Origin: an uncultured Flavobacteriales bacterium
GTDB taxonomy: Bacteria > Bacteroidota > Bacteroidia > Flavobacteriales > Schleiferiaceae
Direction: 5' to 3'
NCBI GenBank assembly: GCA_913055685.1
Contig: CAJXKC010000001.1
Coordinates: 930,001-994,000 of the forward strand
DNA: 64,000 bases
Position 1 is the first letter of the stretch; every line of letters starts with the position of its first letter. Made by a program: the position numbers and the translations under genes. The notes below the pieces were generated by a model, which saw only the letters and a list, made by a program, of their open reading frames with translations, ran no database searches and had not been told where the DNA came from. Shown here in pieces: positions 3,268 to 19,983 of this stretch.

Positions 3268-3951
3268 ATGAAAGTGAAATTGACGACTACCGACTGGTTG
3301 CGTATTGCGGTTTTGGTTTTAGTATTTGTAGGCGGAATTACCGGATCTTATTTTATCCTAAAGCCTAAGCCCCGTCTGCCTATCTATAATCCGTCTGAGC
3401 TAGATCGACGTTTAGTGGCCGAAGATATGCGCGGTAAGGGACGTAATCATAAGGTCCTGCCTTTTGCCTTAATTAATCAGTACGGCGACACTTTAAGCGA
3501 TGCCGATATGGAAGGTAAGATCTATGTGGCGGATTTCTTCTTTACGGTTTGCCCGGATATTTGCAAAGACATGGCGGTACAGAAGCGGCGCTTGCAAGAG
3601 GTTTTAAAGGATCAATCGGATTTTGCTATTCTTTCACATTCTGTAACTCCCGAAATGGATTCAGTACCGGTAATTAAAGCTTATGCTGATATGCAGGGTG
3701 CCATCCCCGGCAAATGGTACATCCTCACGGGCGACAAGCCTCAGATTTACAATTTGGCCCGCCGTTCCTACTTCGCCATTTTCGATCAAGGGGGGAAGGG
3801 CGATGAAGCGGACTTTATCCATACCGAAAACTTCGTGTTAATCGATAAAGAAAAACGCATTCGTGGCTATTACGACGGTACTAGTGAAGAGGATGTGGAT
3901 CGCTTGATACGGGATTATGGGATATTGAAGCAGGAGTATTTAGAAGAATAG
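3268..3951 (+). CDS. SCO1/SenC family protein
   Basis: TM anchor, thioredoxin fold with FTVCPDICKDM and late His (FIHTENFVLID). Confidence 0.9.
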   Translation: MKVKLTTTDWLRIAVLVLVFVGGITGSYFILKPKPRLPIYNPSELDRRLVAEDMRGKGRNHKVLPFALINQYGDTLSDADMEGKIYVADFFFTVCPDICKDMAVQKRRLQEVLKDQSDFAILSHSVTPEMDSVPVIKAYADMQGAIPGKWYILTGDKPQIYNLARRSYFAIFDQGGKGDEADFIHTENFVLIDKEKRIRGYYDGTSEEDVDRLIRDYGILKQEYLEE

Positions 3952-4094: not shown

Positions 4095-6515
4095 TCACCC
4101 TAAATCCAATTGCATTTTCTTTACCCTTTCTTCCAAGCTTTCGGTAGTCATCCGTTCCCGAAGTCGATCAACCATAATTGGAAAGCAAAAGGGACTGGGT
4201 TTTTCGAGTTCCTGAATAATTATGTCTTGCTCCGCTATGCGTTCTAAAGCTTGGCGAAGCCTTCCTTCTTCTAATTGGAACTCCAGAGCCTCTTCATAGG
4301 CTTGTTGCAATAAAAGGTTTTCGGGTTCATAATCGTTGAGCACTTTAAAGATTAAGGAGCTACTGCTTTGCAAATGCTTGTCTTTGATGGGTTCGCCGGG
4401 GTAGCCCCGATAAACCATGCCCGAGATAACCGCGATATCACGGAAGCGTCTACCCGCCAATTCAATGGCATTTACACTATGCATGATATCTTCCCGCAGG
4501 TCTACTGTGCTAAAGATGTCAGAGTCCAAGGCATCTTCGATAGGAAAAGGCTTGTCGCTCAGTAATTCGAAGCCATAATCATTCATAGCAATACTGGCAC
4601 TAAAGGGCTCTAAAAGAGATAGCCTATAGGCTAAAAGTGCCGCCATTCCCTCGTGAACCGCCCTGCCTTCAAAAGGATATACAAATAAATGATGCCCCTC
4701 TCGGCTGCACATTTTCTCGATGAGCAATTGCTCCCGCCTGGGAATAATGGAACGTTCTTCTTGTACCTCCCAGAGCGGACTAATTAGTTTGAGTTCGGGG
4801 TCGCTGCTGCTACGATTATGACTCTCCTCTAGCTTCTGGCGAAGCATCTGACCCATTTGTGCCGAAAGAGGCATCCGACCGCCTTGCCAACTGGGAACCT
4901 GTCCTTTTTTACTGCGACTTAATTTAACCTGAGCTTCCATTCCGCGGAAGCGCACCAGTTCTAGATTCCGACCAGCAAACCAAAAGACATCACCGGGCTT
5001 TAATCGCGAAATAAAATACTCTTCTATAGTGCCCAAATAACCACCACTTTCAAATTTGATTTTCACTACCCCATCGCCCACAATGGTGCCAATACTCATG
5101 CGGTGGCGCATAGCGGTGCGTCGGCGTTGGACCTTGTAAAGGCCATCTTCATCCACTTCTACCTTGTGAAACTCATCGTAGGATTCGAGGCTATCGCCTC
5201 CGTGGCGAATGAAATCTAAACACCACTGCCATTCATGGTCTTGTAGACTTTGATAGGAAAAGGTGGCCCGAATTTCCGGAAGAATCGCATCAGGCTTAAA
5301 GCCAGAACCAACGGCTAGCGTAACCAAGAATTGCACGAGTACGTCGAAAGAGCGTAGGTAAGGAAAGCGTGCTTCTACTAATTCTTCCTCAATAGCCTGT
5401 CGCAATGCGGCTGCCTCTACCAATTCTAAACTGTGGGTGGGGACAAAGTAAATTCGACTGGTGGCTCCCGGCTGGTGACCACTGCGCCCAGCCCTTTGCA
5501 TGAAGCGCGCCACTCCCTTGGGAGAGCCAACCTGTATAATGGTCTCTACCGGGCGGAAGTCCACACCCAAGTCCAAACTACTAGTGCAAACCACCGCTTT
5601 TAATTGGCCCGTATAAAGGGCGTCTTCGACCCAATTGCGTAAATCTTTTGAAATGCTGCTGTGGTGCATCGCCATTAAGCCTGCAAGCTCGGGGGCTACA
5701 TCTAATATGCGTTGATACCATATTTCTGCCTGGGAGCGAGTATTGGTGAAAATGAGGGTCGATTCCGATTCCATAATAACTGGAATTACCTTCTCCAACA
5801 TTTTTATACCTAGGTGTCCCGCCCAGGGGAGTACTTCAACCGAATCAGGTAATACCGAAACTACTTCGATGGCCTTGCGCATGCCCGAGCGAATAAGCGC
5901 GGTTTTCGCTTCTGGAAATTCGGGGCCTAGCAAAACCTGCATGGCTTCCTCCATATTCCCTATAGTTGCGGAAATCCCCCAAGTGCGTAAATTGGGATTC
6001 ATCCCTCGCAGGCGGCTCAAGGCCAACTCCATTTGCACCGCCCGCTTGGAGCCCATAAGCTCATGCCATTCATCCACTACTACCGTGTGTAGTTTTTTAA
6101 AGATGCGCTCATTCTCCTTCATGGCGAGCAGCAAATGCAAACTCTCCGGAGTAGTGATGAGCAAATGCGGCATTTGCTTTTTTTGCTTGGCACGCTGACT
6201 AGTACTGGTATCCCCTGTGCGAATGTCTACCGTGAGTTCCAGGCCCATGCCTTCGATTGCGCGTTCAGCCGACTGCCGAATTTCTTTAGCTAAGGCCCGA
6301 ATAGGGGTAATCCAAAGGATGCAGAGCCCTTTTTTGGAATTGGAATGCAATAGGGCCGGTAGGAGCAAAGAATAAGTCTTGCCACTACCAGTGGGCGCGT
6401 TTACAATACCCGAATTTCCATCGGCATAAGCGCGCCAAGCAGCCTCCTGAAAGGCGGCAGGTTCCCAGTCCAATGACCGAAACCAATCCTGCGCTTTTTG
6501 AGCAGCGGCGGCCAA
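4095..6515 (-). CDS. Lhr-like DEXH-box helicase (ligase-associated DNA damage response helicase type)
   Basis: APTGSGKTYS Walker A, VDEWHEL, SATIGN, MQRAGRSGHQPG motifs; 806 aa. Confidence 0.88.
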   Translation of the reverse strand: MAAAAQKAQDWFRSLDWEPAAFQEAAWRAYADGNSGIVNAPTGSGKTYSLLLPALLHSNSKKGLCILWITPIRALAKEIRQSAERAIEGMGLELTVDIRTGDTSTSQRAKQKKQMPHLLITTPESLHLLLAMKENERIFKKLHTVVVDEWHELMGSKRAVQMELALSRLRGMNPNLRTWGISATIGNMEEAMQVLLGPEFPEAKTALIRSGMRKAIEVVSVLPDSVEVLPWAGHLGIKMLEKVIPVIMESESTLIFTNTRSQAEIWYQRILDVAPELAGLMAMHHSSISKDLRNWVEDALYTGQLKAVVCTSSLDLGVDFRPVETIIQVGSPKGVARFMQRAGRSGHQPGATSRIYFVPTHSLELVEAAALRQAIEEELVEARFPYLRSFDVLVQFLVTLAVGSGFKPDAILPEIRATFSYQSLQDHEWQWCLDFIRHGGDSLESYDEFHKVEVDEDGLYKVQRRRTAMRHRMSIGTIVGDGVVKIKFESGGYLGTIEEYFISRLKPGDVFWFAGRNLELVRFRGMEAQVKLSRSKKGQVPSWQGGRMPLSAQMGQMLRQKLEESHNRSSSDPELKLISPLWEVQEERSIIPRREQLLIEKMCSREGHHLFVYPFEGRAVHEGMAALLAYRLSLLEPFSASIAMNDYGFELLSDKPFPIEDALDSDIFSTVDLREDIMHSVNAIELAGRRFRDIAVISGMVYRGYPGEPIKDKHLQSSSSLIFKVLNDYEPENLLLQQAYEEALEFQLEEGRLRQALERIAEQDIIIQELEKPSPFCFPIMVDRLRERMTTESLEERVKKMQLDLG

Positions 6516-6518
6516 GTT

Positions 6519-7511
6519 TTAGAAAGGTGGGTGAACTGGGCGGTTGTCGATTATCGCTTCGATACGCTCCATTACCTCGGGGCTAAGCTTTTCTTTAGCC
6601 GCTCCGGCTTTGAGATTTTCTTCGAGCTGACTAAGCTTTGAGGCGCCCAAAATAGTGGTGCTTACATTGGGGTTTTTTAAAGTCCAGGCGATAGCCATAA
6701 CTGGCATGCTTAATCCAAGGTCTTTTGCTACATCAGTAAGTTTATTCACCTTATTGAACCAGTCTTCCTGCAGGTTCATTTTGGCTAACCAATTAAGCTC
6801 CTCTAAGGAAAGGCGAGAGTTTTCGGGGACTCCATTGTTGTACTTTCCAGTGAGGACACCACTGGCCAGCGGACTCCAGATAGTGGTGCCTAGACCTACG
6901 GTTTTGTAAATCTGGCTAAACTCCACTTCTACTTTTTCGCGATGGAACAAATTGTACTGCGGCTGCTCCATGGTAGGCGGAATCAAATTGTATTGACGGG
7001 CAACCATATGGGCCTCCATAATTTCTTGCGCACTCCACTCTGAGGTGCCCCAGTACAAAATTTTACCCTGCTGGATTAAATTATGCATGGTCCAAACCGT
7101 CTCCTCGATCGGAGTTTCCTTATCGGGTCGGTGGCAGTAAAATAAATCGAGGTAGTCTACCTGCAAACGTTTTAAAGCCTGATGGCAAGCTTCGGTTAAA
7201 TGCTTACGGGTATTGCCCTTTTGGGTGGGCTTAGAATATTTTAATCCGCTGATACCAAAATAGGCTTTACTGGATACCAAATAAGAATCGCGACTCCAAT
7301 TGAGGTCCTTCAAAACCTCACCCATTAATAGTTCCGATTTGCCATCGGCATACACTTCGGCATTATCAAAGAAGTTTACCCCATGGTCGTAGGCATAAGC
7401 CATTAATTCTGTGGCTAAATCTTTACCGATTTGGGTGCCAAAAGTGATCCAAGATCCAAAACTCATTTCGGAGACTTGTAGTCCCGATTTTCCTAATCTG
7501 CGGTATTCCAT
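6519..7511 (-). CDS. aldo/keto reductase (potassium-channel beta-subunit-like)
   Basis: MEYRRLGKSGLQVSEMSFGSW, FFDNAEVYADGKSE, YLDLFYCHRPD. Confidence 0.92.
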   Translation of the reverse strand: MEYRRLGKSGLQVSEMSFGSWITFGTQIGKDLATELMAYAYDHGVNFFDNAEVYADGKSELLMGEVLKDLNWSRDSYLVSSKAYFGISGLKYSKPTQKGNTRKHLTEACHQALKRLQVDYLDLFYCHRPDKETPIEETVWTMHNLIQQGKILYWGTSEWSAQEIMEAHMVARQYNLIPPTMEQPQYNLFHREKVEVEFSQIYKTVGLGTTIWSPLASGVLTGKYNNGVPENSRLSLEELNWLAKMNLQEDWFNKVNKLTDVAKDLGLSMPVMAIAWTLKNPNVSTTILGASKLSQLEENLKAGAAKEKLSPEVMERIEAIIDNRPVHPPF

Positions 7512-16275: not shown

Positions 16276-16944
16276 ATGAAAAACCTGTTCTATTTATTCG
16301 CCTTAAGTTTTTGTTTTACTTCTCAATTAAGGGCTCAGGCTCGGGCCGATACCAATTCATCGGCAAGCTTCGAAATGATTTACATGCTGGAGAACCGCTC
16401 CATAGATCAACTTTCGTATTTAGCCGAATTCCCTTTTGAGGATACTAGATTGCACATCACCGGGGGCTTCGCTTTCCGGATAAAAAGTCGTTCCATCTTA
16501 GCCCGCATTTTCGCTTTACGCGGGATGAGCTCCGAGCAATCGGTGCGACATAGTTCGGTGGGGCTGCAAGTAGGCTATGAATATGCTTTTGCCGACCATT
16601 GGTCTACCTCCTTCCTTAGTGGCTTTCGACTCGAAAATGGGAAAGCGAGCCATGCCGTGGATACCAGCGGCATTATTGCACCTGGATATGTCCCTAATGT
16701 AAGGGAGTGGAATTACCAGCTGCATTACATTCAAAATCAGCTAAATCTGAGCTATTGGTTTGCTGAGGGTCCGCTGCCTTTCCTGATGCCCAAATCGCTC
16801 ACCTTGGGTTTCTCCTATGGCTTTGCCATTAACCCTTCCCAATTTTGGTTTACCGGTCAGGGAGACATCCCCCAAGCTGGCGTAAAGGCATTTGGAAACA
16901 TTTGGCAAGTAAGTATTCGAATGGAGTGGTACCTTACAAATTAG
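16276..16944 (+). CDS. putative outer membrane protein
   Basis: Signal peptide and beta-barrel-like alternating pattern. Confidence 0.55.
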   Translation: MKNLFYLFALSFCFTSQLRAQARADTNSSASFEMIYMLENRSIDQLSYLAEFPFEDTRLHITGGFAFRIKSRSILARIFALRGMSSEQSVRHSSVGLQVGYEYAFADHWSTSFLSGFRLENGKASHAVDTSGIIAPGYVPNVREWNYQLHYIQNQLNLSYWFAEGPLPFLMPKSLTLGFSYGFAINPSQFWFTGQGDIPQAGVKAFGNIWQVSIRMEWYLTN

Positions 16945-16992
16945 ATAAAGTTAGGCTGGCATCGGGCGAGAAGAAGATCCCAGCAAGCTCAA

Positions 16993-18276
16993 ATGGTTTC
17001 CAAGCATTATTATATGGGTTCACAGAGGGTTGCAACTTCAGTAACTGATTTGGCAAGTCAACTTAGTAGTACAGGATCAGGAAGTGAGTTTGGAGGACCA
17101 GCTAATCAGAGTAATGCTTCAGATCCAGTCATTCAAGACTTTGAAGCGACTATGACTTGTTTATATGGGAATCAGGTAAGTTTTGGGTTTGACCCAGCTT
17201 TAGACTTACCTTTAATGGATGAAGTTGCCTTTGTAGACTGTAATGAAGGAGTTGTGGTAGATCCAAATCAAATCGTGGCAGAAGACCCAGAATGTGCCTG
17301 CGAGCAATCCACCTATTGGGCCTCGCAGTACGAGGCGGATTGTCCTTCATATAATATCATGTATTGGTACCATCCTGATTACCTTGGGTCTGTAGAAGCG
17401 GTTACAGATATTGACGGCGAGGTTTACCAATTCTTCCACAACACCATATGGGGAGAAGATATCGTAAGCCAGAAATCCTACCTTTATAATCATTACTCTA
17501 GTCCCTATCGATTTAATGGTAAGGAAAAGGATTGGGAGACTGGAAATCACTATTATGGGGCGAGGTATTATGATCCGAAGTTGAGTGTGTGGTTGAGCGT
17601 GGATCCTCTCGCCAGTAAATTTCACAATTTATCCCCTTATAACTTCGTAGAAAATAATCCTCTAATGATGATTGATCCCGATGGTAGGGGGCCGTGGATT
17701 TATGATCAACTGGAAGATGGTACCTATCAACGAAGAAAGGTGGAGGAAAATGATGGTGGAGAGAATTTCCATACTTATCATAATAATGATGGGACAACCA
17801 GTTATTACGATCAGAAGGCAGGTACGTTTGTAACGGTCAATAATAGTGAAACAAAACAAAAATTGGCGAATTACATAGCTACTGTTGCTAGGAGACGAGA
17901 AGCTGTTAAAAAAACAAGGGAGGTAATAAATAATATTGGTGATGGAATTGCAACTGTTGGATATGTTGCCGCACCTTTTACTGAAGGGGCAAGTTTAACG
18001 CTTTCAGCTGTGGGAGAAGGAATTTCTCTTACGGGTAAAGCAATAACCAATGCAGCTAATTTTGAAGAAAGTGGTGCTACAACTGAGAACATGGTAGATC
18101 TTGGTGTTGATGTTTTAATAGAATTAGCTCCGCTTCCATTAGAAAACGTAGTAAAGAAATCTAATTTAGATGACGTTTCAAAAAAGATTATTAGGTCTGA
18201 AATTGGAAAGGTTAAGCAGACTGGCGAATATGTAATTAAGAAAGAGATAGAAGAAAATAGATCGAATGGCAACTAA
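16993..18276 (+). CDS. orphan RHS repeat-associated core domain protein with C-terminal tip
   Basis: YYMGSQRVATS, YHPDYLGSVEAVTDIDGEVYQ, YRFNGKEKDWETGNHYYGARYYDPKLSVWLSVDPLA, YNFVENNPLMMIDPDG. Confidence 0.88.
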   Translation: MVSKHYYMGSQRVATSVTDLASQLSSTGSGSEFGGPANQSNASDPVIQDFEATMTCLYGNQVSFGFDPALDLPLMDEVAFVDCNEGVVVDPNQIVAEDPECACEQSTYWASQYEADCPSYNIMYWYHPDYLGSVEAVTDIDGEVYQFFHNTIWGEDIVSQKSYLYNHYSSPYRFNGKEKDWETGNHYYGARYYDPKLSVWLSVDPLASKFHNLSPYNFVENNPLMMIDPDGRGPWIYDQLEDGTYQRRKVEENDGGENFHTYHNNDGTTSYYDQKAGTFVTVNNSETKQKLANYIATVARRREAVKKTREVINNIGDGIATVGYVAAPFTEGASLTLSAVGEGISLTGKAITNAANFEESGATTENMVDLGVDVLIELAPLPLENVVKKSNLDDVSKKIIRSEIGKVKQTGEYVIKKEIEENRSNGN

Positions 18277-18466
18277 AGTTTGTGGAGTTTTATTAATTGT
18301 GTTTGGGGTTTATATTTTCAGAATTGGATTGAAGTATGATGATTCTGATAGTGCTCATTTGATGAATGTTAAGTTAATCGGAGCTGCAATTTTATTAGTT
18401 ATTGGTGGACTCGCTTTAATCTTAACATCGAAAACCATGTGTGAAATTATAGGAGTATTTTGCTAA
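18266..18466 (+). CDS. 66-aa membrane protein, candidate immunity protein for the RHS tip
   Basis: Start overlaps the RHS 3' end by 11 bp; two predicted TM helices. Confidence 0.5.
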   Translation: MATKVCGVLLIVFGVYIFRIGLKYDDSDSAHLMNVKLIGAAILLVIGGLALILTSKTMCEIIGVFC

Positions 18467-18539
18467 AACAGATGGGGGATAACTAAAATATTAAGAGGAT
18501 TAATGTTGCATTTATTGGGAAGAGGGAGACACTGTAAGT

Positions 18540-18658
18540 CCCCCTAAAAATCCAACAGTTTAAAAGTGTGTAAATTTAAACTGTTGACTATGAAGAAATC
18601 AAGATTTTCAGAAAGCCAGATCAGTCATGCTTTAAAGGAGCATGAGGACTTGGAATAA
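18540..18658 (+). pseudogene. IS3-family left-end/orfA remnant
   Basis: MKKSRFSESQISHALKEHED* (18590-18658) matches the usual IS3 orfA N-terminus (MKKSRFTESQIV...); truncated after 22 codons. Confidence 0.6.
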
Positions 18659-18660
18659 AA

Positions 18661-18768
18661 CCCCTTTCAGGTTCAAATTTGGATCAGTCCATATTGGAAG
18701 GCACTGTAGAGGGGTATAAAGTGTTTTATCAAGAACGAATTAGTCCTAACTTAGGTAATGATGAGTAA
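18661..18768 (+). pseudogene. 3' coding tail of unknown protein (possible detached toxin tip)
   Basis: Open frame PLSGSNLDQSILEGTVEGYKVFYQERISPNLGNDE*, no start; stop overlaps the next ORF start. Confidence 0.3.
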
Positions 18769-18955
18769 AATTGAAACTTCCGATTTAATAATAGGTGCAG
18801 CCTTTCTTGCATTAAGTGGCGTGATTTGGTACTTTTCTTATAAGGCCAAAATCTCATCCAAGAATGGTATTGACAGAGCCAATGCCATTCAGCTCAATAC
18901 AGGAGCGATAGGCTTTGCAATGGTAGGACTATATTACATCCTGAGAAATCTTTGA
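18758..18955 (+). CDS. 65-aa membrane protein, unknown (candidate second immunity-like ORF)
   Basis: ATGATGAG overlap with the previous frame; two TM segments. Confidence 0.4.
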   Translation: MMSKIETSDLIIGAAFLALSGVIWYFSYKAKISSKNGIDRANAIQLNTGAIGFAMVGLYYILRNL

Positions 18956-18957
18956 AA

Positions 18958-19380
18958 ATGAAATTTATAATTGCTTATCTTTTGATAATATTATTTCCCA
19001 TCTAACTTTTATCTCAAAATGAGAATGGAAATAATGAATACCAAGAAATCAACCCCAATAAGGGTTCAGGTGGTTTTTCTTTGGTGGATCAGTGGCCGAT
19101 GTATCCTGGTGGGGAAATAGGTGTTAATGAGCATGTTAAGAATGAATTGAAATACCCTGAAGAGGCCTTAAGCGACAGCATTCAAGGGCGAGTAGTTGTC
19201 CGTTATGTAGTACAGACAGATGGTAATGTTGGAGAGATCGAAGTAGTGGAAAGTGTCCATCCACTTTTAGATGAGGAAGCGATGCGCGTTATCAGGGCAA
19301 TGCAAAAATGGAAACCTGGTATTCAGCGCGGAAAGCCAATAAAGGCAGCGTACTTACAAGCTTTTAATTTTAACCTTTAG
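18958..19380 (+). pseudogene. TonB C-terminal-domain protein interrupted by in-frame TAA
   Basis: MKFIIAYLLIILFPI*LLSQNENGNNEY...SLVDQWPMYPGGE...VVVRYVVQTDGNVGEIEVVES...WKPGIQRGKPI; TAA at 19003-19005. Confidence 0.7.
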
Positions 19381-19884: not shown

Positions 19885-19901
19885 CGATCTTCTTTTTGAA
19901 G

Positions 19902-19983
19902 TGCCCAGGACCGGAGTCGAACCGGTACGCCCGAAGGCACAGGTGTTTGAGACCAGCGCGTCTACCAATTCCGCCACCTGGGC
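19902..19983 (-). tRNA. tRNA-Leu (anticodon CAA)
   Basis: Minus strand GCCCAGGTGGCGGAATTGGTAGACGCGC...TCAAAC...GGTTCGACTCCGGTCCTGGGCA; acceptor stem GCCCAGG/CCTGGGC; long variable arm; CCA not encoded. Confidence 0.92.

Follow-up and report, generated by a model that had tools for sequence, protein, structure and literature searches.

Organisation of the locus

Region 16945–18466 of the window (i.e., the whole 64,000-nucleotide stretch of DNA analysed here) contained a 427-aa ORF (16993–18276) and a 66-aa ORF (18266–18466), both on the forward strand and overlapping by exactly 11 bp. A preliminary interpretation based on the nucleotide sequence (hereafter, the sequence-only reading) had described an orphan RHS core with a C-terminal tip, a 66-aa ORF overlapping the tip by 11 bp, and a 48-bp gap from a preceding outer membrane protein (OMP) ORF; all of these elements were confirmed. 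The first part of the 427-aa ORF (residues 1–231; 16993–17685, forward strand) corresponds to the 3′ end of an rhs gene, comprising a pre-core portion and the RHS-associated core. The core was recognised by TIGR03696 at residues 153–231 (E = 2.7e-21, 75.8 bits; cut-off, 32.5 bits), and residues 1–152 were likewise identified as RHS sequence by alignment with the long RHS ORFs of congeners. The core is closed by DPLA(204)-x20-DPDG(228), in which both DP pairs of the reference DPxG-x18-DPxG are retained, with the first Gly replaced by Ala and a spacing of 20. The YD-repeat shell was absent from the 427-aa ORF, which is a fragment, and no signal peptide was visible in it.

The remainder of this ORF (residues 232–427) is a variable tip, which can be divided into a core-to-tip linker (residues 232–305; 17686–17907, forward strand) and a C-terminal tip domain representing the putative toxin (residues 306–427; 17908–18276, forward strand). 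Compared with a related locus in a Bacteroidota MAG (L028), amino acid identity was approximately 56% over most of the linker and 79.5% in the tip domain. The GC content decreased from 0.43–0.49 upstream to 0.33–0.40 across the tip and the small ORF. The 66-aa ORF (18266–18466, forward strand) encodes a putative cognate immunity protein, assigned on the basis of its linkage to the tip and two hydrophobic segments (residues 4–22 and 35–53; threshold, Kyte–Doolittle mean of 1.6).

Upstream, the OMP-like ORF (16276–16944) stops 48 bp ahead of the ATG of the RHS ORF and lies in the same frame, with only a TAG stop and 16 codons between them. Since no relative of the OMP-like ORF was found among 58 related genomes, the shared frame is uninformative with respect to function, and inclusion of the OMP gene in the system was rejected. 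RHS homology begins beside the ATG of the 427-aa ORF, and therefore this codon may not be the native start.

RHS genes in the host genome and its congeners

Residues 1–231 aligned over their full length with 3,563-, 3,591- and 3,685-aa open frames in three congeners (50%–55% identity), where they matched the region preceding the tip; shorter orphan ORFs in these genomes also matched. Matches numbered 9, 4, 2, 15, 4 and 4 in the six congeners sampled. The RHS loci of three congeners (G003, G004 and G005) were organised as arrays, in which an RHS ORF precedes a series of orphan ORFs that combine a core with a tip, and every one of these orphans has a small ORF of its own downstream. These orphan cassettes carry tips other than that in the window. 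The fragment in the window is shaped like such an array unit but is solitary: a search of the host genome (2.96 Mb, 99.93% complete, 8 contigs) for further RHS genes with the same core, as proposed in the sequence-only reading, returned a single core above the cut-off, that of the 427-aa ORF itself. The suggestion that the fragment is a displaced RHS tip was supported by the alignment of residues 1–231 with the long ORFs of congeners and by the finding that, in L028, this tip domain terminates a long RHS ORF.

Distribution of the tip family

In sequence searches against Pfam, NCBIfam, PHROGs, PADLOC and PDB, the tip yielded nothing above noise and no match to a structural domain, in agreement with the initial failure to recognise a toxin family in it. 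The small ORFs produced only noise-level matches in the family searches (Pfam, NCBIfam, PHROGs and PADLOC). Weak matches to ApoL (E = 0.05) and DUF6944 (E = 0.09; 0.016 for the Limnovirga tip) were not used, and a match to the SipB-like model PRK15374 was also disregarded (E = 0.0022), as its score was 16.8 bits and the model cut-off is 828.

The tip family is rare. No convincing relative was detected across 298 genomes of the host's order. Several matches in a genus with 600-kb genomes (E = 0.002–0.01) were discarded; in the one inspected (L007), the alignment resembled glutamate dehydrogenase. Another candidate (L006) was rejected as a metalloprotease-like secreted protein. A sample of 396 genomes from the phylum provided one relative, in Limnovirga soli (40% identity over nearly the whole tip, E = 6.1e-45). 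A scan of 84,980 genomes with the single tip protein, a plasmid search and a scan of viral contigs gave no matches. A two-row profile applied to 84,980 species identified three loci, namely, L028, Limnovirga (L029) and Parapedobacter composti (L030), the last being a more distant relative than the other two. One further locus (L058 in genome G1123; E = 6.9e-11) was obtained when 319 genomes of the order to which Limnovirga belongs were searched with a profile. The tip of genome G275 (L020) was a weak match (E = 0.009 within its genome) and was retained in the family because it aligned over the same Gly-rich stretch. The tip forms the end of long RHS ORFs in L028 and in the distant relatives L020 and L030.

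Linkage of the tip and the two-TM ORF

A small ORF accompanied the tip in each of the six family members. The L028 tip forms the C-terminus of an RHS ORF of at least 1,103 aa, and a 66-aa ORF starts 5 bp after it (3360–3560; 74% identical to that in the window). The Limnovirga tip is the last part of an orphan ORF that overlaps by 4 bp a 67-aa two-TM ORF, which shares 26% identity and a common C-terminal K..C.....FC pattern with the 66-aa ORF of the window. The more distant tips of L030, L020 and L058 are followed at +2, −1 and −11 bp, respectively, by ORFs of 62, 60 and 56 aa, all of which contain two hydrophobic segments. Thus, a 56–67-aa two-TM ORF was found at −11 to +5 bp after the tip in six of six family tips (window, L028, Limnovirga, L030, L058 and the weakly matching L020), which were selected by tip similarity and not by the neighbouring ORF. 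As a control, the same script was applied across 22 loci to all RHS cores whose stop could be read; of the 15 other evaluable tips, none preceded a two-TM ORF of ≤ 70 aa, the next ORFs there being 90–246 aa. The probability of 6/6 versus 0/15 is approximately 2e-5 (hypergeometric, calculated by hand), a figure that serves as a guide only, as the tips are related. Homologues lacking a linked small ORF, which the sequence-only reading had regarded as evidence against a pair, were therefore not encountered among these six.

Two of these loci showed additional features. Downstream of the pair in L028, two more small two-TM ORFs were observed (4415–4588 and 4604–4780), possibly representing a polyimmunity array. 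The array that contains the Limnovirga pair also includes a 1,536-aa RHS ORF, a tyrosine recombinase and further orphan tips; in this L. soli RHS array (L027, 1–12219), orphan tips occur on both strands, one of them with a HELVGH motif.

Comparison between the window and L028 defined the boundary of the conserved module. Amino acid identity was 58% in the core and 56% in the linker, against approximately 79% in the tip domain (residues 306–422) and 74% in the small ORF. At the DNA level, a 573-bp match (75%) began shortly ahead of the tip domain and continued as far as the small-ORF stop codon. The higher identity and the DNA match over these two elements indicated that they travel together on different cores. 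The dN/dS ratios between the window and L028 (Nei–Gojobori) were 0.09 for the tip domain and 0.065 for the small ORF (i.e., 0.07–0.09), although these values are approximate because dS was near saturation (1.5 and 2.1). The ratios indicate purifying selection on both elements across the two lineages together; given this scope and the near-saturated dS, they are not proof of ongoing selection in the host genome. Joint conservation elsewhere and purifying selection indicate that the pair of ORFs is more than a chance arrangement. The earlier proposal of a cognate membrane protein, putatively conferring immunity, was supported by the linkage and the low dN/dS ratios. Together, the tip and the small ORF belong to an undescribed small family of putative toxin/immunity pairs without a model in the libraries searched.

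Region downstream of the pair

The pair is followed by a 117-bp left-end remnant of an IS3-family element including the first orfA codons (18531–18647, forward strand), with 94% identity to positions 5773–5889 of a locus in congener G005 (L056). The IS3-family copy at that locus (5757–6916) has both transposase frames open and lies near the tRNA-Leu locus of G005. Apparently the same transposase frame was also observed downstream of an orphan tip in the RHS array of G005 (L050, 9635–10207).

Next to the remnant, in-frame translation revealed the open tail of a truncated ORF, possibly the end of a second tip (18650–18768, forward strand; ending in ..GIKPLSGSNLDQSILEGTVEGYKVFYQERISPNLGNDE*). It overlaps by 11 bp a 65-aa small membrane ORF (18758–18955, forward strand), the same layout as in the first pair. 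Hydrophobicity and this overlap point to the 65-aa ORF as a possible second immunity gene, with one segment above the Kyte–Doolittle cut-off and a weaker second one. It matched PHROG 35545 weakly (E = 0.0034), and only weak matches were obtained across 328 genomes of the order. Judging from this arrangement, the ORF tail and the 65-aa ORF are probably the remnant of a second tip/immunity unit.

Farther downstream, a small ORF at 18960–19380 resembled the TonB C-terminal domain and contained an in-frame stop after an apparent signal sequence. A tRNA-Leu(CAA) gene (19901–19983), or its immediate vicinity, marks the point from which similarity to three congeners at the DNA level extends rightward; to the left of this gene, no synteny with the same three congeners was found. 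Either a tRNA-adjacent variable region (integration hotspot) or a rearrangement breakpoint is a possible explanation for this boundary.

Putative mode of action and alternative explanations

Based on the anatomy, linkage and conservation described above, 16993–18466 can be regarded with high confidence as an orphan RHS toxin-tip/immunity cassette, in which the 66-aa protein very probably protects the cell from the putative toxin tip. The membrane-targeting effector proposed in the sequence-only reading is plausible as a fair guess, and the evidence from the tip itself was divided. The tip domain is short (approximately 120 aa), and it contains a conserved Gly-rich, hydrophobic stretch (GDGxAxxGYxAAPFTEGAxL...GEGxS). 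Two AlphaFold models predicted, at low confidence (pLDDT of 49 and 53), an all-helical tip domain and a beta-rich linker (model strands at 4–52). No strong TM segment exceeded the Kyte–Doolittle cut-off in the tips of the window, L028, Limnovirga, G275 or Parapedobacter, with maxima of 1.1–1.5 in the four relatives. A glycine-zipper toxin was rejected as an interpretation because the window tip lacks a strict GxxxGxxxG-type zipper and those in the relatives were no commoner than in shuffled sequence. Membrane action is favoured by the two-TM partner in 6/6 tips, the Gly-rich hydrophobic stretch, the low-confidence all-helical predictions and the precedent of Tse5/Tsi5; it is disfavoured in that most tips contain no strong TM segment and a glycine zipper is lacking. 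We consider the chances of membrane action to be about even.

The tip might instead be a soluble enzyme or another non-membrane toxin of an unrecognised family, with the two-TM protein acting not on a pore but by blocking entry or a receptor in the inner membrane. That most tips contain no strong TM segment is consistent with such a toxin, and two-TM immunity proteins (Imm17, Imm-CdiI) have been proposed to prevent toxin uptake (PMC3482391). Nevertheless, the size of the tip domain, its predicted helical fold (low confidence) and its conserved Gly-rich hydrophobic stretch are less easily reconciled with an enzyme, and no conserved His/Cys/Glu catalytic signature was apparent in the alignments, making this explanation rather improbable. 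It is also conceivable that the tip is a mere translocation (pre-toxin) region and that the ORF is truncated, its enzymatic toxin domain having been lost. The IS remnant shows that the locus has been disrupted, and the Gly-rich hydrophobic stretch presumably resembles the regions preceding the toxin domain in other long RHS proteins, a likeness in favour of this reading. However, the ORFs of the window, L028 (a long RHS ORF) and Limnovirga terminate at nearly identical positions, differing by only a few residues, and a small ORF directly follows each of these ends, so that loss of a terminal domain is highly improbable.

Finally, the fragment could be decayed debris that is unexpressed and useless to the host genome. 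Truncation of the 5′ end near the ATG, a genome without a main rhs gene, and the IS remnant and truncated second unit downstream would all be expected of debris. Against this, both frames are intact, and purifying selection over the two lineages together was strong; decay is unlikely, although it deserves more weight than the loss of a toxin domain.

Overall, the explanation we prefer (probability, ca. 0.65) is an orphan cassette consisting of a probably membrane-depolarising tip and its putative immunity protein. In long RHS proteins, the aspartate motif of the core would release the tip. By analogy with Tse5/Tsi5, the helical, partly hydrophobic C-terminal domain would then insert into the inner membrane of the target and collapse the membrane potential, and the two-TM protein, situated in the same membrane, would bind and block the tip. 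Delivery of the tip by the host itself is very unlikely, as its cassette has neither an RHS shell nor an export signal, and there is no main rhs gene with which it could recombine. The remaining benefit to the host could be immunity against neighbours bearing the same tip. More tentatively, and with the odds somewhat against it, these loci may represent an undescribed Bacteroidota family of membrane-depolarising tips with 56–67-aa two-TM immunity proteins, unrelated in sequence to the described pore-forming tips, which survives here as a stand-alone immunity device without a main rhs gene.

The pair was defined by comparison across genomes rather than from one genome, has a clear domain boundary (residues 306–427) and yields a specific prediction, namely, that the tip depolarises membranes and the 66-aa protein relieves this effect. 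As a genome that retains an orphan cassette but no other RHS core, the host is also a natural setting in which to ask whether defence explains the persistence of orphan immunity genes.

Comparison with known systems

Orphan tip/immunity units are already well known as a kind, and the present family is one for which the libraries searched hold no model. Orphan rhs-CT/immunity pairs have been shown to be functional (PMC3967940). As in the orphan rhs-CT/rhsI of Salmonella Typhimurium LT2 (PMC3967940), the window contains a displaced piece of the rhs 3′ end that retains part of the core, carries a variable tip and is linked to an immunity ORF, without the part required for delivery. In LT2, however, the orphan adjoins the main rhs gene and recombines with it, whereas no other RHS core exists in the present genome (99.9% complete).

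For the suggested mode of action, the closest parallel is Tse5/Tsi5 of Pseudomonas aeruginosa. Tse5-CT forms pores, and Tsi5, which has two predicted transmembrane regions, reverses the depolarisation (PMC9637101). Both systems combine an RHS tip whose function cannot be assigned by sequence with a two-TM membrane immunity protein (PMC9637101; PMC10684867), and we infer a similar action from this likeness. Unlike Tse5/Tsi5, the present pair belongs to a different phylum, and the tip profile found no related PDB chain. With respect to immunity, Imm17 is a two-TM family linked to polymorphic toxins in Bacteroidetes and other groups; for two-TM immunity proteins such as Imm17 and Imm-CdiI, Zhang et al. 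raised the possibility that they prevent uptake of the toxin (PMC3482391). The 66-aa ORF is similarly small and toxin-linked with two TM helices, but neither it nor its relatives matched Pfam Imm17, and the WxW motif is absent. EsxX and TelE (PMC12744356), which belong to LXG/T7SS and not to RHS systems, differ further from the window tip in that the latter has no strict glycine zipper; they nevertheless resemble it as C-terminal toxins with a Gly-rich hydrophobic stretch, and their membrane immunity proteins also occur as orphans.
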